64,000 nt of DNA from Brachypterus glaber (Eukaryota; Arthropoda; Insecta; Coleoptera; Kateretidae): assembly GCA_958510825.1 (NCBI GenBank), contig OY294045.1, forward strand, positions 6,189,916 to 6,253,915. The letters are read 5' to 3'. Under the pieces are notes generated by a model that ran no database searches, was not told the origin of the DNA, and worked only from the letters and a program-made list of their open reading frames with translations. Position numbers and translations under genes: made by a program. Position 1 is the first letter of the stretch, and every line of letters begins with the position of its first letter. This document shows positions 6,839 through 33,733 of this stretch, in pieces.

Positions 6839-7566
6839 AAAAGAGAAAATATTTTCTTTATAGGTTAAAACCATTTAAAAGTGGGTGGTTGGTGACAAAA
6901 CTATTTAAATCAACTTTTTTAAAATTTAAATCTTAAAACGGTAAACTCGATTCTAGATGAGTGACAAAAGTATCTACTAAATTACATTTTTTCATATAGA
7001 AATAAAACAAGTTTTCGACTTTCGCTTTTTTTTAATGATTAAAATTTAATCATGTTTAAATATTTTTTCCTGCGAAGGTGCCTATCACTTTTATGACCAA
7101 AACAGTTTATATCTTTTCGTTAAGGTATGCCATTTTTAATTAATTAGTATATCATTGTTAAAAACATTTCACAAGCTATAATAAAATTGATTCTGCCTTT
7201 TGTTGGGTTTTTTACTATCACTTTTCACACACGACTTATATTGGGTATGTATACGCCTATTATAGGGTCGTAATACGCATATTATAGGGCCGCAATGGCT
7301 TATATGGCTTAAAAAATGTATACTATGTGTTATACAAAATCTTTGATTTTTTGGCATTATACAAAATCTGTAATTTTTTGGCATGTGTGTGTATGTGTGT
7401 TATATTTGTTTTTACTAGCCGGCTATAGCCGAACAAATCATAATTACTCTGTTATCCCTAAACTAAAAACTTTAGGGGATATAACTTTTTTTAAAACCAA
7501 ATAAAGGTAGTAGCCATTCCTTTGGATACAATCTTTTTGGAATTTTGTTATAGGTTGATCTAGAAC
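6839..7566. other. AT-rich, no gene; short TG repeat
   Basis: No supportable gene. Holds a (TG)n tract near 7384-7400, and short direct repeats of TATACAAAATCT with TTTTTTGGCAT near 7330-7385. Confidence 0.35.
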
Positions 7567-7740
7567 ATTAAAATTTACAATTGAGGAGGTGAATTTCATA
7601 ACGCAGTTTTTGACTTTGTGACATAACAGCTTGTCACTTAGTAAACAATACAATTTGATTGTCAAGTAATTGACAAGCTGCTATGTCACAAAGTCAAAAA
7701 CTGCGTTTTGAAATTCACCTCCACAATTTATGTAAAACAT
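7567..7740. mobile_element. Hairpin MITE, about 170 bp
   Basis: Two arms of about 60 bp pair almost perfectly: GGAGGTGAATTTCATAACGC at the left and its complement at 7695-7722. The inner TGACATAACAGCTTGTCA and TGACAAGCTGCTATGTCA also pair. Short loop, no frame. A typical palindromic MITE. Confidence 0.65.
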
Positions 7741-7847
7741 TAAGTTGGATGTCGAATAAATTGTTTACTTACTTTGTCAGTAAAATACTCAATAGCAAAA
7801 ATTTCCGGGTATTTTTAAAACAATGGTGAATTTAATGTGACAAATAA

Positions 7848-7876
7848 GATTCCGATTCCAATTCCAATTCCAATTG
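7848..7876. repeat. Short ATTCC/ATTCCA simple repeat
   Basis: Four imperfect ATTCCR units; a similar GGAATT tract occurs near 16695. Simple repeat, no further meaning visible. Confidence 0.6.
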
Positions 7877-8072
7877 GTGTTATTGGTCTTTTCTGTTGGT
7901 AATGGAACAAATATGAAATAAACATATGTGTGCATTTTTACAATTTAAAGTTTAAATTCATTTTTAAAGTTTAAAGTTGATAAAGATTTAGGAACCAATG
8001 CCAGAGCATTATTACACATACCCCTTTTACTAAATTTACCCATGTTTAACTTGCATAATATGTAATGGGAAC

Positions 8073-8958
8073 GGAAGCCTTCTTCGAAAAATTTACCGCG
8101 AAAACAATTATCGCGAAAATATTTCGTCGAAAAAATTACCGCGAAATGTTTTTTTCCGCGCAAAGGATTAACAGCGATAAAAATTTAACGCGCAAAAATA
8201 TTAAAGCGAAATAAAAATAGCGAAAAATATTACCACGAAAAGTTTAAATAGCGAAATGCAATTACCGCGAAAAATATATAGCGAAAGTAATAGCCGCGAA
8301 AATATTTAACGCGCAAAGCAAATTCCGAGTCTAATTTTAAATTATAAAAATACGTTTTTTTTATAATACTTTTTCGTTAGCTACGCCAAGTTTAATATAT
8401 TATATTACCAATTTGTTTAATTAAGTTTAATAATTGCAGAATTAACCAAATTTTAATATAACTAAATTGTTTGGTTTGGTTTTTAAACATATATGTAAGT
8501 AAAATTATAATTATATTACTAATAAATATAATATAATAAAATACATCATTAATTTCTTTATATTGGTGTTATAATTTTAGTATTTTAAAAAACATAAATA
8601 TGATTAAATTGTTTGGTTTTGTTTTTGATAAAAAATAAAAACAAAACTATGATTATAAAATAAGCGTTTTATTTAAAAAATTATAATATTTATTTTTTAT
8701 TTAATTAAAATTTAGGCGCGATTATCATATTGAGCGGCGAAAGTATGTGCGATTATATTATTACGACGTAAAAGTATGCGCGATTTTTATTGTCGCGATA
8801 ATATTTTCCGCGGTAAATGTTTTCGCGGTAATAATTTTTCGCGGTAATTACTTTTTCGCGGTGAAACCTTTCGCGGTTAAATCATTGCGCGGTGAATGTT
8901 TTCGCGGTAAACGTTTTCGCGGTAAAAGTTTCGCGGTAATTTTTTCGGCAAAGTCTCC
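8073..8958. mobile_element. Foldback element with CGCG-rich minisatellite arms
   Basis: The left arm (about 8073-8330) is a run of about 15 degenerate 14-17-bp units of the type AAAATATTACCGCG. The right arm (about 8717-8958) is the same unit inverted, TTTTCGCGGTAAT. The outer tips also match as inverted repeats (TTCGAAAAA.TTACCGCG against CGCGGTAATTTTTTCGG). The 385-bp centre is plain AT-rich DNA. Terminal inverted repeats built from short direct repeats are the hallmark of Drosophila FB-type foldback elements. No transposase is present, and the short frame in the right arm is a by-product of the tandem unit. Confidence 0.7.
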
Positions 8959-9261
8959 TAGATCCATATATAATATTATTAAAACTTATTAATACCTGAT
9001 AAGTGTTTGTGAAAGTGATACGATATCCTATTAGAGCATATGTAACATCATTCTAAAATTTAGTAAATTATGCAATGTAGATATAACCTATAAATTAGAA
9101 CGCAGATATACAGGATAATTTAGAATTAGGGTAAAAAGTTAAACTTAAAAAAAAAATGACATCTAAGGAACTTCTTTTAGTCTTTAAATTGAAAAAGGAA
9201 TCTGGTTGGTGCATCCTGTCTGCTGCAACTAAAAATCTGATGAAGTCAACAAAACTTATGT
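8959..9261. other. AT-rich, no gene seen
   Basis: No frame, repeat or RNA gene that I can support. Confidence 0.4.
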
Positions 9262-9336
9262 GTTTTTAGCACGAGTACAAGTTTAGAAAACGAGCCGCTT
9301 GTGGCGAGTTTTCTAAAGTACTAGTACGCTAAAAAC
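9262..9336. repeat. 75-bp hairpin
   Basis: GTTTTTAGC at 9262 is mirrored by GCTAAAAAC ending at 9336, with an inner pair TTTAGAAAAC against GTTTTCTAAA. A compact stem-loop with no other context; probably a small foldback repeat. Confidence 0.45.
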
Positions 9337-10415
9337 GTGTTATGAAACGAGTGCTTTATACAATTTTTTCTATTTTGCTCTATAATTAAAAAAAAACTTA
9401 CATATAAATTGATGACTGATTTAGGGATTTTTGTTTTGGATTGGCATTACAGTTTACACCATGTTTAAAATTCTAAGAACAAATAATATTTTGTTATATT
9501 TTATAGTCACCTCTTCTCTTTTTTACTGCAATTAACCAAGCCACAATTTTAACATGGTAAAACAAAACACAAAATTTTGTAGAAAATTCAACTTTAAAGT
9601 GACATTGACATTTGCACGGAAAACGTCAAGCGATAGGCCAGGTCTGTTGCCAACCCAAAAGAACAAAAAGTACAGACCTCTTATGGGCCTAAAAGAACAC
9701 ACAAAATGCGTGTGATTATGAGCTTATAAGAGTCGCAAAATAGAAAAAAAAATTAATATGTCTTGTTGTCTAAACCAAATTTCTGCTTAAAGCAACCAGA
9801 ACAATGGTTTTTCCGTTTTTAACAATTGTAATTAATCTGGTTGCCTCCACCAAATCTCTGAAAATGTAGGCAACACTAAGGTTTTTAATTAAAGGCCACA
9901 CATAAAATTAAAAACTTCATAGATTTAAATCCCTCTTTTCAAAACTGGGAATGAAAATGTTGTTTTAATAAATGTATTTGCCTTTAACAAAAATTAATAG
10001 ATTTGTATCAGATTAAATTCAAAAAATCACCTCTGTATATCATACCCCAAAAAATTCCAAAAATATTATTTAAATGATGTAGAATCATCCCTTAAAATGT
10101 TGCATCTCATCTGAATATCCCTGTATAATCTCATGTAAGAATCTATACGTATATATATCAAATTTGAAAGTACATAGAAAATTAATGTAAAGATATTTGT
10201 TTATTTTTAAAATTTATTATATAAATAGCAGTTTTAGTCCAAGTCTAGACCTGGATAAGATTAATGCCTTGGATCAAATTAATAGGAAAAGATCTTAAAT
10301 ATAATTTTTAAATTACATGCGTTAAAGTATTTTTGAGAGTGATTTAAAATAAATCTTTTTAAAAATGTTCTAAATTTATTTCAATTTTTTAAAAATTTTG
10401 TATCATAACAACTAA
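9337..10415. other. AT-rich, no gene; partial repeat end near 10136
   Basis: No supportable gene. GAATATCCCTGTATAAT near 10125 resembles the right tip (CACCCTGTATA) of the TA-flanked palindromes and may be a solo end. Confidence 0.35.
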
Positions 10416-10430
10416 TATTTTCTAATCATC

Positions 10431-10503
10431 GTATAGAGTGATATTGTTCACTGACAGTTTCGGGCGGCTGGCCCTCTTCAGTACCAAGAGTTAACTCTGC
10501 ACG
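10431..10503 (-). ncRNA. Hammerhead ribozyme motif 1 (cleavage site mutated)
   Basis: On the minus strand: CTGAAGA core, stem II GGGC/GCCC with loop CAGCC, GAAA, then CTGTCAG as a short stem III. The triplet that should be NUH reads GTG, and the downstream stem I strand (AACAA) no longer pairs fully with TTGGTA. The fold is recognisable but self-cleavage is expected to be lost. Confidence 0.7.
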
Positions 10504-10760
10504 CTGATTAAGAAAACTATTTTAGACTTTATTCGCAAAAGGAATATAGTCATTAGATTGATACAGACTTGTGCGCCATCTATTGCTAGATGTAGACAAC
10601 TACGCATACCACTCCTAGCCTGGAGACTTTGAATGGTAGCAAGTTGAAGACTTGTGTGTCTCAGGATAGACGTAGAATTAATAAGGACAGACATTTTTAA
10701 TTTTAAACAAAATTATAAAAATATTAATTTATTATTCCATCAATCTATTTTCTAATCATC

Positions 10761-10833
10761 GTACAGAGTGATATTGGTAGACTGACAGTTTCGGGCTGCT
10801 GGCCCTCTTCAGTACCAATAGCCAACTCTGCAC
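10761..10833 (-). ncRNA. Hammerhead ribozyme motif 2, type I, intact
   Basis: On the minus strand: stem I TATTGGTA pairs with TACCAATA (8 bp) and is extended beyond an internal loop by GTGCAGAG/CTCTGTAC (8 bp with one G-U). Core CTGAAGA is followed by stem II GGGC/GCCC with loop CAGCA, then GAAA. Stem III is the tiny CTG-T-CAG or CT/AG hairpin. The cleavage triplet is GTC (10780), so predicted cleavage falls between 10780 and 10779. All conserved core bases are present. Short stem III type I ribozymes are typical of Penelope-like elements and metazoan retrozymes. Confidence 0.85.
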
Positions 10834-11101
10834 GCTGATTAAGAAGACTATTTTAGACTTTATTCGCAAAAGGAATATATGTAGTCATTAGATTGATATA
10901 GACTATTGCTAAATGTAGACAACTACTCATACCTCTCCTAGTCTGGAGACTTTGAATGGTAGCAAGTTAAAGACTTGTGTGTCTCAAGCGCATAGTACCA
11001 CTAACGTGTGGTTAGACGTAGAATTAGTAAGGACAGAAACTGTCAGTCTACCAATATCACTCTGTACGATGATTAGAAAATAGATTGATGGAATAATAAA
11101 T

Positions 11102-12133
11102 AAAAAGAACTGTCTAAATGATCATTTTGTTTATATAACACTCTAAAATGTGAAACGTGTATCACTTTGTAACGGTTTTTTTTATTCATCAAAAAATATC
11201 GTGACGAAGTATAATAGCTAATAAAAATAGTAAACATTTATCATTAGTATTAATCAAAATAAAAAGAATCACGATTTTGAACAACTACCGAAAATTATTG
11301 TTTTTTTATTTTTATTTTAATTATGGATTGAATTTCTTTTATCTGACATAATAAAGTGACAGCTACACAATTGAAAATAAAATAATAACATATCAACTGT
11401 TCGTAAATGTGACATGTGATATAAACAAATGAACGAGAAATCACAGATTAAAATCTTCAAGAAGGTACCGTAATAGGGAGTTAATGGGCCGAGAGATGAT
11501 GTATAAAAGTTTTATGAATTATTAGCAATAATTTATTATAAATTACTGTTTAGTATACCGGGTGTAAATTATTGTTTAGTATACCGGGTGTCACAGGTCA
11601 TATGAAGACCCCCTTTAATTTCTGTATTTATAAAGAAAAAGTTACAGAGCACAGTGTTTTTTTGCCTATAGTTGTAGTAAAAAAAATAATTTAGGACTAA
11701 CAAATATTTTTTTTTGCCGTGGATTGGTTCTCTATTAATAGAGCTCTAAGCTACATATTTTCATAGTTACCGTGGTACGGTTATAGAGGGCGCAACTCTA
11801 CTTTCAGCGCCCACTGTAACCGTAACAAAATACTTATCAAAATGCATAATAAATATAAAACTTATAGAGAATTTCAAGAGCTACAAGTTTGCTTATAACC
11901 TTTTATCCTCCGATGAATAATTTGGCTAAAAAACAATTTTACCCCCAACATGGCCATTTTTGAATATTTATAACTCGATTGTTATTGATATATTAAAAAA
12001 AAATTCAAACAAAAATTGTTGGAAATTTTCTCCTTAACAAAATTCATCGTAAGATGCATATTTAGCGAGATAATTGCAATCACCCCTAAAATTCAAGATG
12101 GCGGACCCCCGGAGTGCTCTGTTGCTATCCACT
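11102..12133. other. AT-rich, no gene; 25-bp duplication with CCGGGTGT
   Basis: No supportable gene. A 25-bp segment ending TATACCGGGTGT is repeated at about 11542-11591. CCGGGTGTCACAGG resembles the tip of the small element at 35020, so an element end may lie here, but I see no partner end. Confidence 0.35.
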
Positions 12134-12559
12134 ACACGGAAAAAAAAATTATAGCTAGGAGCGCTATAACACACATACCAAGCAAATTATAATCGCTTAT
12201 TATATAAATACAAGGCTTTCTCTTACAATTATGGCAGTCAGTGTAAAAATTTATATGAAATACTTTAATTGTTTAGTGAATAATAAAATATTACAAATAG
12301 TATGGCATTTATAGCTTAAATAGATTTAATTATTGTCCGTGCTAATAATTTTTATAATATAATAAAATTTCGGTAAATTTATAATAGTGCCTGTAATAAA
12401 TATAATCGTGTCTGTAATATATATAATCGTTTCCAATTTATTTTTAACATTATTAGTTATTGTGTCCCTTATAATCTATAGCTTAAATCACTATAATTTG
12501 CCACTGTTACCAAATATCTTATAATGTATAGCGCAGAGCCCACTAATTTCTTTCCGTGT
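12134..12559 (+). mobile_element. 426-bp MITE, copy 1
   Basis: Begins ACACGGAAA and ends TTTCCGTGT, with ACT on both sides as a possible 3-bp target duplication. The copy at 57795-58220 has the same length and orientation and differs at only about four bases that I can count. No coding frame. The near identity means recent activity, so an autonomous partner probably exists elsewhere in the genome. Confidence 0.75.
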
Positions 12560-12984
12560 ACTACCATTTAAAATCATCCCGTGTACATTTATTGCAATTT
12601 AACACCGAGATTTCTGGTTATTTGACTGGACTATCAGATAAAACTGTAAGTTTTGCCCCAATATATTGAGTATGAAGAGACCATAAACTTAAAATCACAG
12701 TTAAGGTTTTTATGAAGACATATATTCGATTAACATAAACGCGTAATGCAATACCAACATAAATTTAAAATGCATGAAAAAGATAGGACTTTGAAAGTAG
12801 TACAATGATGTGAAAAACAATAGCTTTATTTGTATTATACAAATTGTGTACGATAGAGATATCAACTTCTGTCATTTGGATATAAAATATTATCTAAAAG
12901 AAACAAGAATACATAGGTGCGGTTGGATTCAAAATAAATAAAAGAAAAAAAAAACGCAAAAGTAAGGTTAAGGAAAATATAATT
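12560..12984. other. AT-rich, no gene seen
   Basis: No supportable gene or repeat boundary. Confidence 0.4.
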
Positions 12985-13445
12985 TATCCAATACATACAG
13001 ATAATAAGACAATTACCAGCTTTATTTTAAATAGATAAACTCAATAATAACCCCCGCGTGGCTTTTACTTTATTGAGTGGATAATTACTTATTTTACCCA
13101 ATCAACTGTCACTTGTCAAATTATTTTCTTGTAAATGTCATTAAAAGTTAATAAAAATATGAAATCCTAAGCTATTTATTGGATAAAACCTTGTATGGCA
13201 CTCATGGGTAAACAGATATTGCCCTCTCGAAAATTAACCTTAATTAATTTTATCATGGGCAATAACTTACTTTAACCACTAGTACCATAATAGTAATTTA
13301 TGGTACTAGTGGGTAAAGTAAGATATAGCCCATAAGAAAATTAACCTGCGAGGCGTCAGCCAAGCAGGTTAATTTTCGATAAAGTAAAAGCCATGCGGGG
13401 GTTATTATTGAGTTTATCTATTTAAAATAAAGCTGGTAATTGTCT
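12985..13445. mobile_element. Palindromic MITE (ACCCCCGCG family), copy 1
   Basis: The left arm GACAATTACCAGC...AATAATAACCCCCGCG (13009-13060) is mirrored by CGGGGGTTATTATTG...GCTGGTAATTGTC (13396-13443). A central hairpin AACCTGCGAGGCG.../CAAGCAGGTT lies near 13345-13372. It is related to 19190-19785 (interrupted by a SINE) and 36283-36560. The right tip is cut off where the next element starts at 13446. Confidence 0.65.
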
Positions 13446-14499
13446 AAGGTTGGTCCGGAAATCAGCCCTAAGGAAGCTACGACCCTTCTAAGCGTACATC
13501 TAAAAAGTAGTTTTTATTTAATATTTCTGGAATCCTATAAACCACATAAACGAATTTTTGCACATGCCTTAGCATTGATAAAGGCTATCATTTGATGTAA
13601 TTTTTATTTAGTAATTTTAACCAGGGACGTGCAAAATGGGGGGGGGGGCGATATCACTTTTTTGCCCCAAACTTTTTTATCCATAGATTTTTTGACATTT
13701 TCTCAATAAAATATTAATCTTTAATTAAAAATACATAAAAAAGGTAATCTTAATGTAACGCCGTAGAGCCAACCGTTTCGAGGCAATTTTACGTTCTGGC
13801 CATCAAAAATAGGAAATAAAAAATGCACTAGTAAAAATTTTAATACTTCGACGTGATTCTACATTAAAAACTGTGAAAAAAAGCTCGTGTACATCTAAGT
13901 TCAAAATTCAGTTTGAGAGTATTACGGCCTCTTAAACAGTAACACTTTTTAAGGGACCATAGCTCCCTTAAAAGTGATTTGTGGATATTTATGTATGTGA
14001 ATTTTTTTCGTGGTTTTTAATGTAAAATCTCTCTCTGCAGTATTGAAATTTTTGTTCCTATTTTTGATGCTCAGAACGTGAAATTGCCTCTTTAATTGTA
14101 AATTTCTCAAAAACGGTTGGCCCTACAGTGTTACATAAAGTGTACCTTTTTATGTATTTTTAATTAAAGATTAATATTTTATTGAGAAAATGTCAAAAAA
14201 GTTACGGATAAAAAAGTTTGGGGCAAAAAAGTAACATCACCCCCCATTTCGCACGTCCCTGGTTAAAATTACCAAATAAAAATTACATGCAGTGATAGCC
14301 TTTATCAATGTTAAGGCATGTGCAAAATTTCGTTACTGTGGTTTATAGGGTTCCAGAAATATTAAATAAAAACTACTTTTTAGATGTACCCTTCTGAGGG
14401 TCGTAGCTCCCTTAGGGCTCATTTTCGGACCACCCTTTATAGGAACTTTTTTTTCATATTTTTTCTTAAATATTTCTAACTCATTCCTGAATAACCCTG
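13446..14499. mobile_element. Palindromic CAGGGTG-family element, left end truncated
   Basis: GGTTGGTCCGGAAATCAGCC at the left is mirrored by the complement of AGGGCTCATTTTCGGACCAC near 14415-14435, and the arms pair for several hundred bases. The right tip ends in CCCTG|TA, but the matching left tip is missing because the element abuts the preceding MITE. A G tract (10 G) lies at about 13642. No transposase frame. Confidence 0.65.
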
Positions 14500-14944
14500 T
14501 ATTTAAAAATTTCGGAATTTTGCATTTTGATTCGCTGTCAAAAGAGAAATTTATTCATCAAATTATGTATATTGCTTTTAGATGGACTTATTATGTTGTT
14601 TTATGGGCTAAATTTTAGATTTGGTTTAATTTATACACTTTTGGAAATTAGTTTTTGATAAATTTATCCTTACCGGTTTCTGCCTAAGAATTCCTAGCAA
14701 AATTGTAAAATTTGCAATATATTTGCAATGTATGATTCTATTAACCTAGATTATCAATTAATTTATTAGATAGCTATTTTCTACTAACTACCTACTTCTC
14801 CAGATAGTTTTTTCTCAAATGAGTAAACATTAAAAAAAATATATTAAAAACAAGCGATGAAGATTATCAATGCTTCGCATTCCATAAAGAGGAGTTTTTG
14901 AAGTAAACCGCTGAAAAAATTAAACCTGAATTTCTTCTAGAAGG
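14500..14944. other. AT-rich, no gene seen
   Basis: No supportable gene or repeat boundary. Confidence 0.4.
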
Positions 14945-15371
14945 AACCCAAGTAACACGCTTAGATTTTACAGCTTAAATTGGCTGTACCTCTCATTTTA
15001 AACCAGCGTTTAGCTTTATTTCGGTAATTTAGTTTGCTTTATTTAGGATTTTCTATTAAGCTGTTCTTAACACTTTACATCCACTGTAATAGCAATTATC
15101 GACTTGGCGCAGCCAATAAATAGTACAAAATAACACCACAGCAGCAACACAAACAGCTGCTGTTTGTGTTCTGTTTTATATACTTTAAACCTATCTTAAA
15201 ACAATCAAAAATAATAGAAATTGAATGCATTTTAAAACCGCTTAATGCTAGTATTATTACCTAGAGTCACTCACTCTTATTGTCAAAATGGTTATCCATC
15301 CTACCCGTAAATAACGGAACTAATTCATTACAGAAATCTGTAACCTACAATAATATATTTTATACAGGAAG
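14945..15371 (+). repeat. Dispersed 425-bp repeat, copy 1
   Basis: Runs from about AAGTAACACGCTTAGATTTT to ATATTTTATACAGGAAGC and is matched in inverted orientation by 29452-29872. Shared phrases include TTCTTAACACTTTACATCCA and GTCAAAATGGTTATCCATCC. A polymorphic CAGCAGC stretch lies in this copy. It ends directly against a hammerhead motif at 15373. Class unknown. Confidence 0.6.
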
Positions 15372-15372
15372 C

Positions 15373-15445
15373 GTACAAAGTTGACTCTTGGTACTGAAGA
15401 GGGCCAGCAGCCCGAAACTTTCAGTCTACCAATATCACTCTGTAC
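15373..15445 (+). ncRNA. Hammerhead ribozyme motif 3, type I, plus strand
   Basis: Stem I TTGGTA/TACCAA, core CTGAAGA, stem II GGGC/GCCC with loop CAGCA, GAAA, stem III CTTTCAG, cleavage triplet GTC at 15425-15427. An outer stem I extension GTACAAAG/CTCTGTAC has one mismatch. All core bases are kept, so activity is plausible. It is followed to about 15516 by the unit's AT spacer, with ATTTCTGTCCTTAT marking the truncated body. Confidence 0.8.
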
Positions 15446-15516
15446 GATGATTAGAAAATAGATTAATGGAATAATATATTAATGTTTTTATATCTTTGAT
15501 TAAATTTAAAAATTTC
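15446..15516 (+). repeat. Truncated retrozyme-like unit, locus B
   Basis: Continues from the hammerhead with GATGATTAGAAAATAGATT, the AT-rich spacer and the first bases of the body (complement of AAGGACAGAAAT), then stops. A single, incomplete unit in the orientation opposite to loci A and C. Confidence 0.6.
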
Positions 15517-15582
15517 TGTCCTTATAAAAATCTTTAAAGCATGAGCTACGTGTAGTGTTTTGTGAAGTAGGTATAATAATGT

Positions 15583-15626
15583 GGCCAGAAATGGCCTAGT
15601 TGTCCGGCTTTGGCCAACCCAAAAAT
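15583..15626. repeat. Short shared repeat (also at 47174)
   Basis: GGCCAGAAATGGCC followed by TAGTTGTCCGGCTTTGGCCA recurs exactly at 47174-47216. It is partly palindromic (GGCCAGAAATGGCC). Presumably a remnant of one repeat family. Confidence 0.5.
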
Positions 15627-15636
15627 TTACTACTGC

Positions 15637-16011
15637 TAAAGTTTATTTTTTTAAGGTATAGTTATTTTAAACCTTCCCGCTTGTAAACTATCTCGAAATT
15701 ACCATAGCAAACCTAAAACGTTGACGTGCCATAAACGAGAACAAAACAATGGTTTATTCCTCTAAATTATTGGAATAAGAGCGATTTTATAAGCAAATTT
15801 TGTTTCTACAGGAATAAAAAAGTGTTTTTAGCAACAGATTTATCAATTCTCTTTTTTTACATCAAAACATCATAAAAACAAAGTAAACAAAAATTATAAG
15901 TTTTGGTTTTGTTGACATTCAAAATAAGCCACATGCTTCAGTGTAAATCGGACTTTGTGGAGTATGTAGGGGCAAATTTAAAATAACTATACCTTAAAAA
16001 AATAAACTTTA
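15637..16011. mobile_element. MITE with 35-bp terminal inverted repeats
   Basis: TAAAGTTTATTTTTTTAAGG at the left is mirrored by CCTTAAAAAAATAAACTTTA at the right. The match continues through TATAGTTATTTTAAA, about 35 bp in all. Both ends touch TACTA-like sequence, but no clean target duplication can be claimed. No coding frame. Confidence 0.65.
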
Positions 16012-17047
16012 CTACTAGGTATAATAATAATAACATGACTACTTAGTTGTTACAATTCTAAGATCTAGAAATAGAAGTATTTTATATAAATCACGTAACC
16101 TGTTCATTAAACCTCTGTAAGCACTTAATTAAAGAAATTATTGTACCGTAAAAAAAAATGATTTTTTATATAATAATATAATAATCCTAGTAAACAATCC
16201 AAAGAAGCACGCGTGTAGGCGCGGCAGTTCATTAAAAGTTATATATTATAGTATACTTCACACTGTAGCAGTACCCGAGGTACCTATTCTTGACTTTTGA
16301 GGAGTAGAACTATACTGGAAATTCAATCACTCGCAGCGTGTTCCTTGTAAGAGACGGATGTGGCCGCTTAGGCGGATTTACTCCTGCATCAGCCTGCTAT
16401 CGTAGATATGCACAGGACTTGATTTATTTTATTTTATGTTGTTTCGTGAAAATATTACTTTAATAGTAAAGTTTTAAGTAAATCGTGATTATTTATGTTT
16501 TTTTTTATATTGTGATGTTAAATTTTAACGTGGAAATGTTGAACATGTAAAGTCACTTTTTTAATAAATTTTAAAGATAATTTTTTTATAAGTTGGCTTC
16601 TGCGCAAACATCACTAAAGAGTGAGTCGGTTTTGCGTAGGCCGAAAATTATATTAGATTGAGCTGGAAAACTATCCTATGGAAAATGCCATTATTTGAAT
16701 TGGAATTGGAATTGGAAATTCAATAAAACCTGCATGGACTTATACCTCTTTTAAATTATATCTCCTAAAAAATGTTATAGACAAGGTAATAAAATTACCT
16801 TATTGTAAAAGCTAAGGACCAAAAAAACATTAACAAAAAAAAATAATTAAAAAATAAAAGTTCCTTTTTCTAGAATTAGAATCATTAGAATGTACATTCA
16901 TTTCTTCTCACATAATTGATTTTAGGTATAGGTATATTTAATATCATATTAAATAATTACACAAGTTTACAAAAACTTTGCTGACGGAGTAGTTTTTGGG
17001 ATAACTATCGCACCTTACTCGAAATATTGATAACGACAGAAATTATT
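16012..17047. other. No gene; TATA-like site and GC-richer patch near 16200-16430
   Basis: Mostly AT-rich. At 16236-16270 a TATA-like TTATATATTATAG is followed about 25 bases on by TCACACT, and then by about 160 bases of more balanced composition with a donor-like GTAAGA at about 16347. This could be a promoter with a 5' exon or part of a retroelement leader; no frame decides it. Confidence 0.25.
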
Positions 17048-17062
17048 AATTTTCTATTCATC

Positions 17063-17135
17063 GTACAGAGTGATATTGATAGACTGGCTATTTCGGGCTG
17101 CTGGCCCTCTTCAGTATCAAAAGTCAACTCTGTTC
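17063..17135 (-). ncRNA. Hammerhead ribozyme motif 4 with compensatory stem I change
   Basis: Core CTGAAGA, stem II GGGC/GCCC with loop CAGCA, GAAA, triplet GTC. Stem I reads TTGATA/TATCAA: relative to TTGGTA/TACCAA in motifs 2 and 3 a G-C pair has become A-U on both strands. Stem III (TAGCCAG) is weak, with only a U-G closing pair. The paired change supports selection on RNA structure at some stage. Confidence 0.8.
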
Positions 17136-17408
17136 CTTGATTAAGAAAACAGTTTTGACTTTATTCGCAAAAGAAGTAGTCATTAGATTGATGTATACTT
17201 GTGCGTCATCTATTGCTAGATGTAAACAACTACCCATACTTCTAGTCTGGAGACTTTGAATGGTAGCAAGTTAAAGACTCTCAAGAACATAGTACCACTA
17301 ACGTGTGGTTAGACGTAGAATTTATGACAGATTTTTTTTTTAAATCAAAGTTATAAAAACAAACAAACAAAACAAATTACTATTCCATAAATCTATTTTC
17401 TAATAATC

Positions 17409-17481
17409 GTACAGAATGCTATTGGTAAACTGACAGTTTCGGGCTGCTGGCCCTCTTCAGTATCAAAAGTCAACTCTGTAC
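17409..17481 (-). ncRNA. Hammerhead ribozyme motif 5
   Basis: Core CTGAAGA, stem II GGGC/GCCC, GAAA, stem III CTGTCAG. The triplet reads GTT, which still fits NUH. Stem I is TTGATA against TACCAA, with one A-C mismatch where motif 4 has the compensated pair. The outer GTACAGA/TCTGTAC helix is intact. Probably weakened but foldable. Confidence 0.75.
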
Positions 17482-17665
17482 GCTGCTTAAGAAAACAGCT
17501 TTGACTTTATTCGCAAAAGAAGTAAAGTTATTAGATTGATGTATACTTGTGCGCCATCTATTGCTAGATGTAGACAACTACTAATATTGATAATTTATTT
17601 TATTCTACTAGACACTCTAAAATCTGATAAAGCCCATTTTTTTGCCTAACTTTTTACATTTTTGT

Positions 17666-17921
17666 TTAACCTCGTAATATTCTACTTAATTAAGCATCCC
17701 CTAAGTCCAGGACTTGTGTGGGCGCTAGTAGTAGAGGGAACCACCGGCTCTAATTGACTTTTGAACCAATTTATAGGAAGTGTCCGCTTCACTTACGCCT
17801 TCGCCAAGTTTCAATTATTAATTAACTGAAAAAGGCAAATCGGCGCCGGTGAGAATCGAACTCACGCTTTTTTGGGCATTAAACTCGACTACGACGCGGT
17901 AGTCCACTACACTACACTAAA
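17666..17921 (-). mobile_element. tRNA-headed SINE, copy A
   Basis: On the minus strand: head with box A GTGTAGTGGACTACCGCG and box B GTGAGTTCGATTCTCAC, then GGCGCCGATT. The common body follows (CTTTTTCAGTTAATTAATAA, GGCGAAGGCG, GGTTC.AAAGTCAATTA), and the 3' end is AGTAGAATATTACGAGGTTA. RNA polymerase III promoter boxes lie inside the head. Dependent on LINE enzymes for movement. Confidence 0.8.
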
Positions 17922-18329
17922 AATAAAATTTGCCTTGATATGAGTTATTCGGATTCAGCACGTAAAAATACCCAAATAATTTTTTAAAGAAAAAAATGTA
18001 ATCCAGTGTTAATTATAATTATAAAACCATGGTCTATTATTAAATAAAACAATTATTTTAGCATGAAATTGCTTATACCTAATGAAATTATATGGTAATT
18101 ATTTAAAAAAAAGTTGTAGTAAAAAGTTTTCATTAAAAACTAATCTACATTAGGTACAAGTCAAACATTTTGAGATCAACTATTAAATAACAATTTTATT
18201 TTAAAAATATTTTAAGGACAGAGAGCATAAGTACAGGTAAATTTACAGCTATTAGGTTGTCGTCATCACAAAATAGTACCTAAAATACCGCCGTATTTTT
18301 TCATAATATCGATACCTTTATTCTAATTC
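17922..18329. other. AT-rich, no gene seen
   Basis: No supportable gene or repeat boundary. Confidence 0.4.
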
Positions 18330-18542
18330 TACATAGAAAAAACGGATTCCTTGAACCAAGGACACGTGTCTTTGTATATGTTCAAAGCCATATTCTCTTG
18401 TTTCAAGGCTGGCATTTTCTTGAACCAAATCAATGTCCTTGAATGAAGAGCACGGGTTTTGGAATAAAAATCCGGAGAATATGACTTTGAACATATACAA
18501 AGACAGGTGTCCGTGGTTCAAGGAATCCGTTTTTTCTATGTA
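18330..18542. mobile_element. Palindromic MITE (GGATTCCTTGAACC family)
   Basis: TACATAGAAAAAACGGATTC at the left is mirrored by GAATCCGTTTTTTCTATGTA at the right, with further pairing of GACACGTGTCTTTGTATATG. About 213 bp, no real frame. A related copy at 21799-22220 is split by a SINE, and a diverged one lies near 51833-52060. Confidence 0.65.
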
Positions 18543-18989
18543 CGTATGGGAATTTATTAGAATAATATATGAAATATATTAGTTAGTTATTTGTATACAA
18601 AATAGAGAAATAATCTTCTCTGACACGTGGGATTAGAACCAATAGAGAGAGCGACAAAAACAAAAAAATCTCATCTGTACTAAACGTGAAACATTTTTTT
18701 AGGTAATTTTTAAGATTTTTTTGAGATAATTTTGAAGGAAATCTTAAGAGATTACCACCTAAAAGCAATTCTGGTATATATTTTACTTTCCCCAAGGAAA
18801 GTCTTGCGTTAGTAAAAAAAAATCGAAAAATTTTTATTGCTTTTTTTTACGTTTCTGGACGTTTTATATCCAAAAAATATGATTTTCGTCAAAAAAAAAA
18901 AAAAAATTAAAACAAAAAATGACAATGTCTGTCAAAAATTGGCAAATGATATATGGTTGTAATCAGAATTTAATTCTGAATCAAAATAT
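18543..18989. other. AT-rich, no gene seen
   Basis: No supportable gene; homopolymer A/T runs around 18815-18905. Confidence 0.4.
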
Positions 18990-19189
18990 CGTCGGCTAAG
19001 AGGTAAATTTACCTAAAAATATTTTTTTTTTCAAAATCTGTATTTTTATAGAATCGGATACAACATTTCTTACTCTATGTTTCTGTTTAAAATTAACTTG
19101 TATTAAATCAATACCTACCGATAAAAAGAATAAAAATTTTAGAGGTAAAATTACCCAAACCGATCATAAAATTGCAAGTAAAGCACTAT

Positions 19190-19785
19190 AGTTATTTATG
19201 GTACTAGTGGGTAAAGTAAGATATTGCCCATGAGAAAATTAACCTGCGAGGCGTCAGCCAAGCCAATTTTCGAGAGGGCAATATCGGTTTACCCATGAGT
19301 GCCATACAAGGTTTATTCCAATAAATAGCTTAAACATTCATATTTTTATTAAAAATTTTAATGACATTTACAAGAAAATAATTTGACAAGTGACAGTTGA
19401 GTGGGTAAAATAAATAATTATCCACTCAATAAAGTAAAAGCCACGCGGGGGTTATTATTGAGTTTATCTATATGGGAGATTAGCTCAGCGGTCTAAGGCA
19501 TCGATATAGCATTGACACTGAGCTAATGATCGTGAGTTCAAACCTCACTGGCGCCGATTGCCTTTTTCAGTTAATTAATAATTGAAATTTGGCGAAGGCG
19601 TACTCCCTAGATATATTGGTTCGAAAGTCAATTAAAGCCGGTGGTTCCCTCTACTACTAGCCCACACAAGTCCTGGACTTAGGGGATGCTTAATTAAGTA
19701 GAATAGTACGAGGTTAAAAATAAAATAAACAAATAAAAATAAAAAAAATCTATTTAAAATAAAGCTGGTAATTGTCTCATTATCT
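19190..19785. mobile_element. ACCCCCGCG-family MITE, copy 2, split by a SINE
   Basis: GGTACTAGTGGGTAAAGTAA (19200) through GCCACGCGGGGGTTATTATT (19440-19460) matches the right half of copy 1. The tail TTTAAAATAAAGCTGGTAAT resumes after the SINE at 19753. The left arm is missing. Confidence 0.65.
19472..19748 (+). mobile_element. tRNA-headed SINE, copy B
   Basis: Head with box A TAGCTCAGCGGTCTAAGGC and box B GTGAGTTCAAACCTCAC, then GGCGCCGATT, the common body and the end GTAGAATAGTACGAGGTTA with an A-rich tail. A 6-bp target duplication ATCTAT (19466-19471 and 19748-19753) marks retroposition into the MITE. The head differs clearly from copies A, D and E although the body is shared. Confidence 0.8.
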
Positions 19786-20302
19786 GTATGTATTGGATAA
19801 AAGTGTTTTAGCTAGACTTTTAGATGACAATTCTCATCATTAAAATCAGGCAGTAATATAATAGGGATACTTTTGAACTAAAACATGACAGTTCCGTACA
19901 GAAATTGATATAATAAATATAGTAGATGTAACACAAAAGCGCCTGGAAATATAAAAAAATAAGTATACAACAAAATAAGATATACAAAAATCTTTATAAA
20001 TATCATAATTTTAAGTTAGATTTCATATCCCCTTATGTATGGCCTTAGGTTTAGGTAAATTTACCTCTAAAATGTGTGTTATTTTTAGAATGTCTAGTAT
20101 CTATACCGATTTTTGTTGAATTTTAAATAAAATAGTTAAGAATGAAATAATTTAAAGACAATAACGAATTAAGTGCTCTTTAAGATACAAAAAAAATACC
20201 TATAGTAAGTATAAATCACCAAAATAAATTTTAAAATCGGTTTTTACGTTTCCTGAAAAATTTGAAAATGTAGCGATAGGTAAATTAACCTCTTAGCCGA
20301 CG

Positions 20303-20858
20303 ATATGTAAAAATATATAACGTGTTCCATTTAAAAATCAATAGTTCAGATCATTTCTAGGGAAACCGGAAGTGAAACAAAAAAAAATCCGACATTTTAT
20401 AGCCAATGTAAAATTATATAAATCAATAAAGTTTCGTTTTTAATGAACCAAAATTAATTTTAATTTTAGGGGTATATCTCGGAGTTAAAAAATATAAAAT
20501 TTTATAAGTAATTTTTAAGAAAAGATGTCCTTTTCTTTAATGTTTTTTTGGATTTTTTTACTATAAGTTTATTTGGTGCCCTAAAACAAACAATAATGGT
20601 CGCGTATAAAAAAATTAGCATTTCTTTTAAAAAATAACTTTCTATATCACTGTTACCATTGTTTTACTAATCATATAGTTTAAGTAACAAGATCAAGATC
20701 GGGACGTGAGCCGAGTAAAATTTTCCACATCAGTTGAAAAGATTGAGAAAGTATTGTTTTGCCATAACATAAAAAAAAACAGTTTTTTTCACAATACCTT
20801 TAGCATGAAAATGGAAAAACGTAGAAAATTATGTAAATTTTATTACCTATCTTATTTA
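20303..20858. other. AT-rich, no gene seen
   Basis: No supportable gene or repeat boundary. Confidence 0.4.
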
Positions 20859-20993
20859 GGGCCACTTGCACCAATGATGGTTTAACTTTAAACTTGGATT
20901 AAATTGACGGCTGACCAATCAGAACGCAGCATTTTTAACTTAAACTCGGTTTAGCTGAGATAATCCCTTACCAAAAGTTGGTGCAAGTGGACC
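20859..20993. mobile_element. 135-bp MITE, GGCCACTTGCACCAA ends
   Basis: GGGCCACTTGCACCAA at the left is mirrored by TTGGTGCAAGTGGACC at the right, with more pairing inside. A short complete hairpin MITE of a type common in insect genomes. No frame. Confidence 0.7.
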
Positions 20994-21290
20994 TTAATCT
21001 TTTAACGAGAAAATGTGCATGTGAAAATACCTCGGAAAATACAAATTATTTATTTTGAAAGTATTAAGTATGTAAAACGCTCCAAAGCGACACTCAAAAG
21101 TTTGTTTATTAAGCTTTATTACCAGTAGTCGGTGTAAACTCATCAACGTTGAAAATAAACAGAGAAACATTGGCTTTTTGGAATAATTTTGCCGAATGGT
21201 GAGGGAAATTTTTACGAAGGTCACTAAATCGAAACATTTGACGACTAATTTGTTACACACAATAATATTGACTATACATTTTAACTAAAC

Positions 21291-21295
<5 letters not shown>

Positions 21296-21332
<37 letters not shown>
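21296..21332. repeat. (TA)n microsatellite
   Basis: About 18 uninterrupted TA dinucleotides. Confidence 0.9.
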
Positions 21333-21337
<5 letters not shown>

Positions 21338-21798
21338 TTTTTCAAAGAAAAAACCGATAATCGATTTTTATCTTTTAAAAATACGAATGTTTTTAATTTT
21401 TATTTATCGATAACTTTTTTCCCACCTTACTCATTTAAATGGAATTATTAAAAAAGAAATAAAAATATAAATATTTAAAACCTCGCGTCAACGCTAGAGT
21501 CGACGCGACGCCTATGCGAGTACTGAAAATTCGCCGAGTACTGTTTATTACACAATATATAAAGGTATTTTCTTTAATTAAAAAAATATTTTAATAAAGC
21601 TATAGAGCCGAAATAATTTTAGCAATTTTAATTTTCAAATTTTATAATTTAAATAAATATTAAATATAAACCAAGTTAAACGTAATTTATTAAAACATTT
21701 AGTTGTTTTAATAAAAAATAGGTCATCGCAGTTGATTAATTGATTTTTCAATGTTTTTTTTTATTTTTTTTGGTTAATTATTTACTTATACATCCACA

Positions 21799-22220
21799 GA
21801 AAAAAAAGTATTCCTTGATGCAAGGATACGTTTCTTTCAATATGTTCAAATCAATATTCTCTTGTTTCAAGGCTAGCATCTATGGGAGGTATAGCGTAGT
21901 GGCTAGCGCGTATGCATAGCAAGTCTACTATCGTGAGTTCGATTCTCACTGGCGCCGATTCGACTTTTTCAGTTAATTAATAATTGAAATTTGGCGAAGG
22001 CGATAAGTGAAACGGACACTCCCTAGAAACTGGTTCGAAAGTCAGTATAAGCCGGTGGTTCCCTCTACTACTAGCCCACACAAGTCCTGGACTTAGGGGA
22101 TGCTTAATTAAGTAGAATAGTACGAGGTTAAAACAAACATGTATTTATTTGAACTAAAGTCAATGTCCTTAAAAGAAGTGCACGGGTTTTTGAATAAAGA
22201 TTCATTCAAGGACATTAACT
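21799..22220. mobile_element. GGATTCCTTGAACC-family palindrome split by a SINE
   Basis: ACAGAAAAAAAAGTATTCC with CTTGTTTCAAGGCTAGCATC before, and TCAATGTCCTT with GCACGGGTTTTTGAATAAAG after, the SINE match the palindrome at 18330-18542. The SINE has landed near its centre. Confidence 0.5.
21892..22138 (+). mobile_element. tRNA-headed SINE, copy C
   Basis: Head with box A TATAGCGTAGTGGCTAGCGC and box B GTGAGTTCGATTCTCAC, GGCGCCGATT, the common body and the end AGTAGAATAGTACGAGGTTA. The head is distinct from both copy B and copies A/D/E. Confidence 0.8.
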
Positions 22221-22351
22221 TTTGTTAAAAGACATGCTAGCCAGTCATTAACACTTAACTCACTAAGAATCTGACCAATGAAATATCAGAATTTATTGAC
22301 ATTATTCATTTCATTGGTTCTTAGATTAGTTTGATTCTAATCATACATTAT

Positions 22352-23210
22352 CAGTGATCGGACTTTGGATTTTTTAACAGGTCCGCATTAAGGAAAACGT
22401 GATTTATAGTATTTAATAACAATATTACTTGTATTGTATACAGATATTGTTTTTGGTATTACTATAGTAAATAATAGCGTCATGTAAGAAATTATTTATG
22501 TATTTTATTTTCAAAGTAAATTATTAAAATCTTTTCAATCTTTTTTTTAAAGTAATGCATTTCTTTTTGTATTAAAATCCATTTATGTAAACAAAATGAC
22601 CTTTCCACGTCTACCGATGTAAGTGGTGCAAAGAAAAACGTATTTTCCTATGACCTAGTTAGTAGTTAGTGCCTATTTTCCACTCATTGCCTATGATAAC
22701 GGTTGGAAAGTGACAATCAGATGATTTTACATATCTACTGTCAGAAAATTAGTAAACATCATTTTCGAGTGTTACGCCCATGTTAATTGTATAGGAAAAT
22801 AGCGTTATAGGGGAGGGGGTCTAGAATTATCAAAATTTGCGTTACGTAATACTAGAACGTTACCTTAATTTCTATTTTATATTTAACAACCTAGGAACCA
22901 CACCGAATATTGAAATCTGTCCGCTTATCTTAAAAAAAGGAAAAACATATTTATGTACACACTGTTTTTTGTTTTACTTTTTATTTTATTTGACTGTAGG
23001 TATTTAAATTAGTTTGATTTCACAGGAATATTTAAAATAATACATTAGACAAAAGAGCAAAATTAAACGAAATTAAAATTAAACAAACCAAGAATTACAT
23101 AACAATAATAATGTATTTTTGTTACTTTAATTTAATTGATCTTGCGATTTATGAAATTATTCTGTTTTCCTTAATGCGTACCTGTTAAAAAATCCAAAGT
23201 CCGATCACTG
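22352..23210. mobile_element. Non-autonomous hAT-like transposon
   Basis: Terminal inverted repeats begin CAGTGATCGGACTTTGGATT and continue for about 45 bp (TTTTAACAGGTCCGCATTAA). A perfect 8-bp target duplication TACATTAT flanks it (22344-22351 and 23211-23218). An 8-bp duplication with CAGTG-type ends is diagnostic of hAT elements. At 859 bp with no transposase frame it is a deletion derivative. The clean duplication suggests a fairly young insertion. Confidence 0.85.
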
Positions 23211-23218
23211 TACATTAT

Positions 23219-24377
23219 TCAACTAAAAATCCTTAAAAAAGTGCATTTTAATAATAAATGAAATGAAATTCACCTTCTAGTGAGTAATTTAGTCCACTTG
23301 CAGTATTTTTTAAGTACACTTTTACATTGGAAATCGAATAATAACATCAAGTTTTCTCCTTGTTCTAGAAAAACCCAGCAGGACAGAATCAATTACCCAT
23401 CTATAGAAGAACGTATAAAACATTTTTGCAATTACCTATTTAAAATATTAGAACATGCAGAAAAAAATAAATAATTTTATATAGGGGAACCCGGGGCGGA
23501 ACGGGATATGGGGCGAAACGGAATATGGGGCGAAAAGGTATGGAGCTGTTATCGGGCGAGGATGTGTGGCAGAGTTAAGCTAATCATATTTAAACATTCT
23601 ACAATGCAGTGATTGGCTTGGTTGTTTTTTGTATAGTTCTACGTTTTCCGCGATTTTTACAGGTGTCGAATTTTGTGTAAATTTATAATATTTATAGATA
23701 TTTATTCTAGGTAAGTCGTGTTATTCTGATTGATTATATTTATGATACCTATTAGGAAAGTTCGTAATATAATGTTTTAATTATTTATTGTTCAGAAATG
23801 CTGATCGTGATGAGTAAAATAAGTTTACGTTCACTTTTGACTGTAGTATGCAATTGGGGCAGAATGGGATGGGGCGGAATGGGATAGTACCCGTTGTATT
23901 AATATAGTAGTCATTTTGTTGTTATACTACAAAAGAAAAACTGCAAACCAAACTGTTTCTCAGTGATTATGGACCCTGCTATGGAAATACCATGGTAAAA
24001 TTAAAAAAAAAAAATTAAATTTTGTTGACTGACAGGCAAAATTTCATTAAGGGTCTGACTTTTTACACTCACAGTATAATTTAGCCATAGGGGTCACGGT
24101 TAACCCTCTGGAAATGTTTAATATTTATTCCTAAATAGTTTCTATAATTCTATAATAATTTCTGAAATAGTTTGACAACAGTTTTCATGTGTTTAGAAAA
24201 AAATACCAAAAAGTCGCATATGTATGTCAAACAGCTATAACTTTTTTTCGTAATTATTACTAAAACAGTTTTCTCAGTGGTATTAGCTGGTATGTTTTTA
24301 ATCTGGTTCATATCATCTGGTGCATATCTTGTATTGTCATGAAAAACATGATAAATAAATATACAGTATAACAATAT
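23219..24377. repeat. GGGGCGGAA repeat fragments; no gene
   Basis: Clusters of GGGGCGGAACGGGATATGGG-type units occur at about 23483-23540 and 23855-23896 in direct orientation, within AT-rich DNA. They look like ends of one decayed element. No supportable gene in the interval. Confidence 0.4.
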
Positions 24378-25449
24378 CGTCGGCTTACAAGTAAAAGGCA
24401 CTAAGTCACTTTTTTGCAAAAATGGGATTTTAATAGCACTGTAGTTAATTTTTGATGATCTATGTATAGGTAAACCGAACTAACTTCTAGGTGGACTTCC
24501 AAGGGAGTTACCCCCTATACAAAATGCACCAATTTGATTTTGATTAAAATTTTATCTGGCAATAGGCACTAAGTCACTTAGTGCACTTAGTGCGTTTTAC
24601 TTGTAGATTATATCAAATGTTTCTGCACTAAACGACTTTCTAAAAAGAGTTTATTTATAAAACTATGATTGCTTGAATCATTTATATGATACAATATCGC
24701 GTTATTTATTGTACTGACAAACGCATTCAAATTTTAACTGATAGATTATTTTAATTTTGCTCTTAAATCCTTGGTTACTACATAAATTACAAGAATATAA
24801 GAAAAAACTAAAGTTCGCAGCAAGTTCGGAAAACAGCCCTTAGAATTGCACCGTGAAGTGTTTTATCATTAATAATGATTCATTATAATTATTGACTTTA
24901 GGAGATGCTTCTTTGCCGGCACAGCCGATGGCCTCTGAAAACTGTCTTAGTTCTGGCATAGTAAGCAGTTTCATATAATTAATACTAATTAATTTTATTA
25001 AAGTCCAAAATGAAAACTTTCTTTAAACAATCAAAAAGTCCAAACCCTTCTTTTAAAAATCTAGTTTTTGAAAAGGTTATTAAACATCTTGTTTTCTACT
25101 TTATAGTTATACGTTTAATTAATAGAAGGGTTTTAATTTTAAATAGTTGTTTTTTTATATTATTTTATTGACTTAGTGCTCTTTACTTGTAAGCCGACGT
25201 CGTGGGCCTACAAGTAAAAGGCACTAAGTCCATGTCTTTTTTCAAATTTAGTTGAATTAAACTACTTCAACTTTTCTTTATTTAACTGCAAATGGGACAT
25301 CATTATGTCCAAACATATCATTGCAATTTGCGGTAGTTTTTTTCCAAAAACAATTATTATAAAAATTAAAAAACAACAATGAAAGTTAAATTTGTCAATA
25401 TCTCAAAACCATGTTTTTGGACTTAGTGCTCTTTACTTGTAAGCCTACG
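24378..25449 (+). mobile_element. Composite inverted-repeat element, copy 1
   Basis: Ends CGTCGGCTTACAAGTAAA and its inverse, flanked by the 4-bp duplication ATAT (24374-24377 and 25450-25453). Inside, a second pair of the same ends meets head to head at 25199/25201 with one base between, so it consists of two end-bounded units of about 822 and 249 bp. The same two-unit arrangement recurs inverted at 43423-44490. CACTAAGTC phrases repeat near all four ends. No transposase frame. Confidence 0.8.
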
Positions 25450-25478
25450 ATATAAATATTCAAGCTTTTATAAAAAAT

Positions 25479-25694
25479 ATGGAAAATAAAATATATTATT
25501 ATTTATGCTTTTATAAAAATATATAGAAAATAAAATAAAATAAATGTTTTTCTCCCTTCTGCTCATATAGAAATACGTAGCCACATATGGAAAATAAAAT
25601 ATATTATTATTTATGCTTTTATAAAAATATATAGAAAATAAAATAAAATAAATGTTTTTCTCCCTTCTGCTCATATAGAAATACGTAGCCACAT
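25479..25694. repeat. Two tandem 108-bp units
   Basis: The unit ATGGAAAATAAAATATATTA...ATACGTAGCCACAT occurs twice almost without change. Since 108 is divisible by three, the minus-strand frame across it is an artefact that repeats the same peptide. Confidence 0.8.
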
Positions 25695-27579: not shown

Positions 27580-27832
27580 ATGGGAGGATTGGTGTAGTGG
27601 ACTACCGCGTCGTGCTTGACGAGTTTACTACCCAAAATAGCGTGAGTTCGATTTGCCTTTTTCAGTTAATTAATAATTGAAATTTGGCGAAGGCGTATTT
27701 GAAGCAGACACTACCTATTAAATGGTTCGAAAGTCAATTAAAGCCGGTGGTTCCCTCTACTACTAGCCCACACAAGTCCTGGACTTAGGGGATGTTTAAT
27801 TAAGTAGAATAGTACGAGGTTAAACAAAATGT
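27580..27832 (+). mobile_element. tRNA-headed SINE, copy D
   Basis: Head box A GGTGTAGTGGACTACCGCG and box B start GCGTGAGTTCGATT, after which the end of the head (CTCACTGGCGCCG) is deleted. The common body and the end AGTAGAATAGTACGAGGTTA follow. Same head type as copy A. Confidence 0.75.
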
Positions 27833-29872: not shown

Positions 29873-30044
29873 ACATCTGATTATCCAATTCTTTTAAAAG
29901 TGCAAAATGATCAAAATTTGCGTAATACTTGAACGTTCCCTTAGCTCGCTCCAAAATATCTTTAAGTAAACTTTCATGCCTTAAAACCTATTTGTTTAGG
30001 CACTAAAGTATAGTTTTTATTATGGTGCGGGACTAATTGTGAAA

Positions 30045-33250: not shown

Positions 33251-33733
33251 AAAACTCATATGCACATTACATGTAAAATTACATATAAAATCTAGTAAAT
33301 TAGACAATTTTATATCAAAGTGCGTTTTATACAATTCTAAACAACTTTTAAAAAAATCCGTCCATCTGAGAATAATCCTTTGTTATCCAGAAACACTTTT
33401 TTGTTCCATAAATATCCAATATCAAAGATTTTATATCCTTAAAACAATAAAAACCCTTCACATGAACTTCTGTTCAAAATAGCGCCGGGCGGGACTTTTA
33501 AATATTTTTTAAACAATCTAAAAAAAATCAGGGTTATTTTTTCACCTAAAGGAACAATTCTAAGGGGTGGAACCCAAACAATTCCGTAGGTCCTGTGCAC
33601 CCTAGTACTTATAAGTAATTGTCTACATATGAAAATAGATGGCACACAAGTATACATCATTCTAATGACTTTATTTTTGAAACAGTCGAAAATTTTAACT
33701 TTGATAGTTTATTTTATTTTAAAACTTTGTTAC
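33251..33733. other. No gene seen
   Basis: Two short overlapping frames on opposite strands exist here, but neither has recognisable content. Confidence 0.35.

Follow-up and report, generated by a model that had tools for sequence, protein, structure and literature searches.

A tandem repeat at 10416-11101 of a 64-kb stretch of DNA from the beetle Brachypterus glaber (hereafter the window) raises the question of whether its units, which bear hammerhead ribozyme motifs, are able to release themselves as unit-length RNA, and of how such units were copied into the places at which they are found. An earlier note on this DNA had read the repeat as retrozyme-like, with self-cleaving ribozymes held at a fixed phase in tandem units. 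Our best explanation for the evidence as a whole, to which we assign a probability of roughly 0.8, is that this repeat and two further loci in the window are small, non-coding animal non-LTR retrozymes that were copied internally by a borrowed reverse transcriptase.

The repeat, locus A, has the following parts:

10416..11037, minus strand (read from 11037 to 10416): sense segment of nearly two tandem units, marked by direct repeats D1-D5
10759..10841, minus strand: complete hammerhead motif A2, with a predicted cut 5' of base 10779
10429..10510, minus strand: broken hammerhead motif A1, with triplet GTG and three of six inner stem I pairs
10449..10779, minus strand: unit stretch of 331 nt from the A2 cut to the matching place in A1
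11036..11114, plus strand: inverted, head-to-head partial copy, with 69 matched bases (11036-11104) and then CTGTC (11110-11114)

The direct repeats D1-D5 recur at spacings of 323-346 bp with 87-97% identity, and families D1 and D3 place A1 and A2 330-331 bp apart, in agreement with the earlier proposal of a second motif about 330 bp away in a tandem unit. A2 contains CTGAAGA, a stem II of GGGC/GCCC with the loop CAGCA, GAAA, the triplet GTC, and all of the core bases; its stem III consists of three pairs (A-U, C-G, and U-A) with a loop of 3 nt, and its stem I has an inner part of 8 bp (scoring six of six for the inner pairs) and an outer part of 10 pairs. The identification of this motif as a complete type I hammerhead is thus confirmed, we agree on the position of its cut, and A2 looks competent for cleavage.

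The same is not true of A1. Hammerheads are known to fail to cut when a G occupies the cleavage position. With its GTG triplet and its three of six inner pairs, A1 is expected not to cut, and it is dead by the usual hammerhead rules as applied to its sequence; the notion of self-cleaving ribozymes at a fixed phase therefore holds for A2 and fails for A1. Because A1 would not cut, the release of unit-length monomers from locus A is not expected, and the GTG triplet rules out the locus as a working ribozyme dimer. The inverted copy bears on the same question. Its 69 matched bases are 99% complementary to 10724-10792 and span the region from the hammerhead GAAA into the tail. For a transcript beginning at 11104 or farther upstream, ViennaRNA favors pairing with the inverted copy over the A2 hammerhead fold by 31.8 kcal/mol, as compared to a gap of 6.3 kcal/mol for a transcript from 11035, which lacks the inverted copy. 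The inverted copy can therefore mask A2, on these predicted energies, in transcripts that include it. Between the uncleavable triplet of A1 and this competing fold, the idea that locus A releases unit-length RNA is not sustained, and the locus appears to be a decayed retrozyme copy.

A text search of the window for CTGANGA followed by GAAA returned eleven matches, five of which represent one common motif (CTGAAGA GGGC CAGCA GCCC GAAA, from which A1 differs at one loop base). These five hammerhead motifs lie in three loci, and two of them, A2 and B, are complete; the text search placed B at 15394 on the plus strand and C2 and C1 at 17437 and 17091, respectively, on the minus strand. The additional loci and a diverged piece of the unit are as follows:

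15370..15521, plus strand: locus B, a single partial copy with one hammerhead and a full tail, which leaves the unit after TTTCTGTCC
15364-15447, plus strand: B hammerhead (model match), cut 5' of 15427
17034..17582, minus strand: locus C, a partial tandem with two hammerheads 346 nt apart
17407-17490, minus strand: C2 hammerhead, cut 5' of 17427
17061-17144, minus strand: C1 hammerhead, cut 5' of 17081
33615..33675, minus strand relative to a plus-strand query: diverged unit piece with no hammerhead, 82% identical over 61 bases

Loci B and C start at different points of the unit, and the piece at 33615-33675 may represent either an ancient copy or sequence that another element has in common with the unit. 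Pattern scans with pieces of the unit yielded no matches in viral and prokaryotic contig collections, which say little in a case of this kind.

The B hammerhead retains all core bases, the triplet GTC, six of six inner stem I pairs, and three stem III pairs. C1 likewise has GTC and six of six inner pairs, the latter by way of a two-sided change (TTGATA/TATCAA in place of TTGGTA/TACCAA), and it has two stem III pairs, as compared to three in the other four copies. In C2 the triplet is GTT and five of the six inner stem I pairs are present. The stems carry loops, and a contact between loop 1 and loop 2 is a feature of metazoan non-LTR retrozymes. A strict type I descriptor, which was composed after the fact with the motif already known, matched twice in the window (A2 and B) and not at all in 300 dinucleotide shuffles.

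A covariance model built from the five copies and run unfiltered scored them at 97-112 bits (111.9 for A2 and 96.8 for A1), values that are not independent since the model was made from those same copies. Over the whole window it found no sixth copy; 22 other matches scored 24.6 bits or less, and some of these were opposite-strand echoes of the same five motifs. Rfam at its gathering scores, meanwhile, recognized no hammerhead in the whole window, and under relaxed thresholds it gave a weak match of A2 to RAGATH-1-hammerhead (20.5 bits versus a cut-off of 56.3, E = 1.2) and no hammerhead at loci B and C at E up to 5. In the alignment of the five copies, 93.0% of the cells in named stems were paired, as compared to 26-40% when the partner was slid by one to three columns. 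A shuffle test for covariation among the five window copies was not significant (203/500), one stem I pair (in C1) having changed on both sides. Energies calculated with ViennaRNA, which have no term for loop-loop contacts, favored an extended stem I over the hammerhead by 6.3 kcal/mol for A2 and by 6.6 kcal/mol for B.

Elsewhere in the window, a long inverted repeat at 34660-34880 carries CTGACGATGATAATCGAAACCGGTA in each of its arms (around 34688-34706 and 34830-34848). CTGACGATGATAATCGAAACCGGTA, which was considered as a possible second hammerhead family, resembles a hammerhead core in which the palindrome ACCGGT stands where stem III would be, and its stem II pairs poorly by eye. At 34688-34848, Rfam gave no hammerhead at E up to 5 and matches to microRNA-type hairpins that were below cut-off.

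The three loci together bear on whether locus A could be a miniature inverted-repeat DNA transposon, whose termini would be its 69-nt arms (10724-10792 and 11036-11104). The near-perfect complementarity of the arms is what such an element would offer, but B and C have no pair of arms, and one of the arms of locus A lies in the middle of the tandem rather than at a terminus. As paired inverted arms occur at locus A and nowhere else among the loci, we rule out this reading, to which we attach next to no probability.

What, then, is the unit? From hammerhead to hammerhead it measures 331 nt in locus A and 346 nt in locus C, with nothing else in between, and its GC content is 0.36 and 0.33, respectively, in a window whose GC content is 0.296. 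The two units of locus A are 93.2% identical to each other over 263 columns, and the A units are 87.0-88.6% identical to those of C. All eight sites at which the four units divide two to two group A1 with A2 and C1 with C2, as expected if each locus arose from one circle; a source array that had been homogenized by conversion would give the same grouping. The A units differ by at least two block indels, and so an origin from one circle needs later deletions. High self-pairing is reached by one of the two units: compared with shuffles, the A unit had z-scores of -5.4 as a linear molecule (329 bases) and -7.85 as a circle (331 bases, 60 shuffles), as against -0.88 and -0.92 for the C unit (17081-17426, one base off the cut-to-cut stretch). 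Self-comparison of the window revealed no LTR-like pair.

These properties can be set beside those of metazoan non-LTR retrozymes, which, in the surveyed text of Cervera and de la Pena (2020; PMC7229834), are described as tandem repeats whose units measure about 170-400 nt and contain type I hammerheads with a short stem III; further traits are a GC content below 45%, no LTR, and, where present, a target duplication longer than 4 bp. They are recorded there from cnidarians to arthropods, including insects, and their circular RNA has been demonstrated in coral, mussel, and axolotl (PMC7229834). The loci described here share the type I hammerhead with a short stem III (A2 and B), the size and GC content of the unit, and, at locus C, an 11-bp target duplication (see below). 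They differ in that only two of the five motifs are complete, and in a common internal end and an inverted copy that are absent from the surveyed text of PMC7229834. The description of the repeat as tandem, retrozyme-like, and equipped with type I hammerheads is supported for the family. Plant LTR retrozymes are likewise non-autonomous, with hammerheads that bound the RNA unit, but in the passages surveyed they have type III hammerheads, LTRs, units of about 700 nt, and 4-bp duplications (PMC7229834, PMC7761336), in contrast to the type I hammerhead and 11-bp duplication seen here.

A tandem layout is also what would be expected of ordinary satellite DNA that contained a hammerhead by chance and was spread by unequal crossing-over with no RNA step. 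An insect case is known, the pDo500 satellite of Dolichopoda cave crickets, a tandem repeat whose hammerhead cuts in vitro; its units, as described in the parts of the source surveyed, are about 500 bp long and make up about 5% of one genome (PMC2837043), whereas here we find dispersed, short loci of 331-346-nt units. Three such loci in both orientations, each of one or nearly two units and one of them flanked by an 11-bp duplication, make the satellite explanation very improbable.

Evidence as to how the retrozyme units were copied comes from the ends of the insertions. Locus C is flanked by a direct duplication:

17023..17033: target duplication TTATCAATATT on the 3' side of locus C, exact over 11 bp
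17583..17593: target duplication TTATCAATATT on the 5' side of locus C, exact over 11 bp

The copies of TTATCAATATT line up exactly with the two termini of locus C; for randomly paired positions in the window, the rate of agreement across 11 bases is 6.5e-06. No clear target duplication was found at loci A and B. The 5' end of locus B adjoins a repeat (14947-15372) of which there is another copy at 29453-29852 (a 400-bp repeat); that copy has CAGGAAGC in common up to the B junction, the two copies do not match beyond B, and the junction looks like a microhomology join.

At the opposite side, locus B ends with TTTCTGTCC and locus C with TTTCTGTCG, and both leave the unit at CTGTC. The next four bases after both ends are TTAT, which is the start of the duplication in C and is also what comes next in the A unit; the exact end is therefore uncertain by about five bases. 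In B, and likewise inside the A unit, CTGTC ends 94 nt beyond the hammerhead cut; inside the C unit it ends 102 nt beyond it, and at the end of locus C it is preceded by a gap of about 47-55 nt. The inverted copy of locus A has a gap of about 28 nt after its matched part and then CTGTC at 11110-11114, which may be the end of the inverted copy and by itself could be chance (the frequency of CTGTC in the window is 0.00056 per base and strand). TTTCTGTC is found three times in the 64 kb, both strands considered, at the B end, the C end, and the A inversion junction. Because B and C are homologous there, the rarity of TTTCTGTC is not separate evidence, and we have dropped it as strong proof of a common end. 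By simple arithmetic, two ends would fall within about 5 nt of each other in a 330-nt unit with a chance of about 3/100. The A1 end of locus A does not agree with these two, as its departure from the unit is about 33 nt beyond the cut position.

The place of the hammerhead cut is read through in all five copies. Had a linear, cut RNA been primed at its own end, the insertions would stop at the cut, and those of B and C do not. From these ends and the read-through we infer that the template was intact at the hammerhead junction and primed at an internal site, which suggests that the RNA that was copied was a circle or an uncut multimer rather than the cut linear form.

A similar arrangement has been described for PAc, a Penelope-like element of Anolis. 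In the surveyed passages of PMC11167929, the PAc hammerhead cuts within the ORF, at 26 nt, and reverse transcription begins inside the template, at 111-118 nt of the ORF, with AT-rich sites as targets; by subtraction, the distance from cut to start is 85-92 nt, as compared to 94 nt in locus B. Insertion in vitro was unchanged by mutations of the PAc hammerhead (PMC11167929), a result that agrees with an uncut template. Copies of Penelope in Adineta vaga, according to the portions surveyed, have an inverted terminal repeat, mostly head to head, and duplications of 8-10 bp, and one junction shows microhomology with no duplication (PMC3846280). The loci considered here thus share with Penelope-like elements a type I hammerhead, partial tandems, a head-to-head inverted copy, a short duplication, and an AT-rich target. 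These marks of Penelope-like insertion are spread over loci A-C, no single locus having all of them, and we take the resemblance as a lead and not as proof.

Might the loci themselves be pieces of a Penelope-like element? On this reading, they would be pseudo-LTR fragments of an autonomous element whose coding part has been lost. Penelope-like elements do carry type I hammerheads, and their insertions, too, comprise tandem copies, inverted partial copies, and short duplications (in the surveyed parts of PMC3846280). Against this, the Penelope hammerhead is described, in the passages seen, as a minimal type lacking helix III or the loop contacts (PMC7761336), whereas stem III is present here, with three pairs in four of five copies, and hammerhead follows hammerhead at 331 or 346 nt with no other sequence in between. 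Penelope-like elements, as described in the literature surveyed, have an ORF for reverse transcriptase, mostly with a GIY-YIG endonuclease. In contrast, a Pfam search of the six frames of 7001-21999 (E up to 0.01) detected no domain, and hence neither reverse transcriptase nor GIY-YIG; the flanking Penelope-like reverse transcriptase for which the earlier note had proposed a search was not found there. Two plus-strand frames of 22000-36997 were also free of Pfam domains, and among ten open frames tested (two of them inside 7001-21999) cytochrome c was the one clear Pfam family. The loci are thus not identified as a Penelope-like element as such, and we consider the pseudo-LTR reading improbable. 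A decayed Penelope-like partner elsewhere is possible.

We return, therefore, to a retrozyme and to the enzyme that moved it. LINEs, too, leave truncated 5' ends and target duplications such as the one of 11 bp seen here, and both features fit a retrozyme that was mobilized by a LINE instead of by a Penelope-like enzyme. The surveyed text of PMC7229834 leaves LINEs open as movers. An A-rich tail of the LINE type, or one of simple repeats, is absent from the ends of B and C, at which CTGTC is followed by TTAT, and a fixed start inside the unit has been described, in the passages surveyed, for a Penelope-like element (PMC11167929). We judge a LINE to be a possible but rather unlikely mover. Penelope-like elements were proposed as candidate movers of retrozymes on the basis of hammerheads, tandems, and co-occurrence (PMC7229834), and in the parts surveyed of three sources (PMC7229834, PMC7761336, PMC11722881) the mover of animal retrozymes is named as a candidate only. 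We infer from the analogy with PAc and Adineta vaga that a Penelope-like element is the likeliest source of the enzyme; the insertion ends can reasonably be read in this way, although they do not prove it.

A pathway consistent with the retrozyme reading would be as follows. Transcripts through a tandem copy would cut themselves at the hammerhead to give RNAs of about 331-346 nt, which, by the published pathway, could be circularized by a host ligase. The template of a borrowed reverse transcriptase would then be RNA with an intact junction (a circle, or else a multimer that had not been cut), and synthesis would begin near CTGTC, about 94 nt beyond the cut, with AT-rich DNA as the target. Where the enzyme went on across the junction, in some cases repeatedly, dimers and partial tandems would be generated, and these steps would leave the products that are observed, namely a truncated 5' end, a duplicated target, or a partial copy in inverted orientation.

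More tentatively, animal retrozymes might be SINE-like parasites of Penelope-like elements, in which the hammerhead and the roughly 90 nt beyond it imitate the junction between pseudo-LTR and ORF. The Penelope-like reverse transcriptase would start at a fixed internal site on the uncut retrozyme circle, and its crossing of the junction at least once would give rise to dimers, truncated copies, and head-to-head inversions. We offer this as a conjecture that is more doubtful than probable. As the insertions have an internal end in common, and its distance from the cut can be measured, the mover of animal retrozymes becomes testable by counts of ends in a genome. The unit, probably a further animal retrozyme, has a sequence of its own. 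Among retrozymes, the common internal end and the inverted copy are possibly new features: neither was reported for them in the titles, beginnings of abstracts, and passages surveyed.

Finally, we note several other features of the window. The cytochrome c frame (56274-56606, minus strand; Pfam PF00034, E 4.4e-16) is intronless within the frame. Among the best 120 of 2813 relatives (E up to 1e-30), the proteins of named beetles are 73-78% identical and those of two copepods 79%, the first by E-value is from a gastropod (69%), and the testis-specific cytochrome c of two beetles is included. A tRNA-like match (21885-21957, 39.2 bits) lies at the edge of a dispersed repeat that is probably a tRNA-derived SINE, with copies near 17649-17912, 19529-19745, 27581-27852, and 32834-33087. 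Two tandem arrays are present, one at 30339-30998 (140-bp unit, 4.9 copies, about 80% matches) and one at 48668-49694 (114-bp unit, 9.2 copies, higher-order period of 336 bp), the 114-bp unit having an inverted copy at 49679-49796. A 1.1-kb repeat pair in opposite orientation (24368-25453 and 43419-44502) is 95% identical, and a 428-bp direct repeat pair (12133-12560 and 57794-58221) is 99% identical at a distance of 45 kb.
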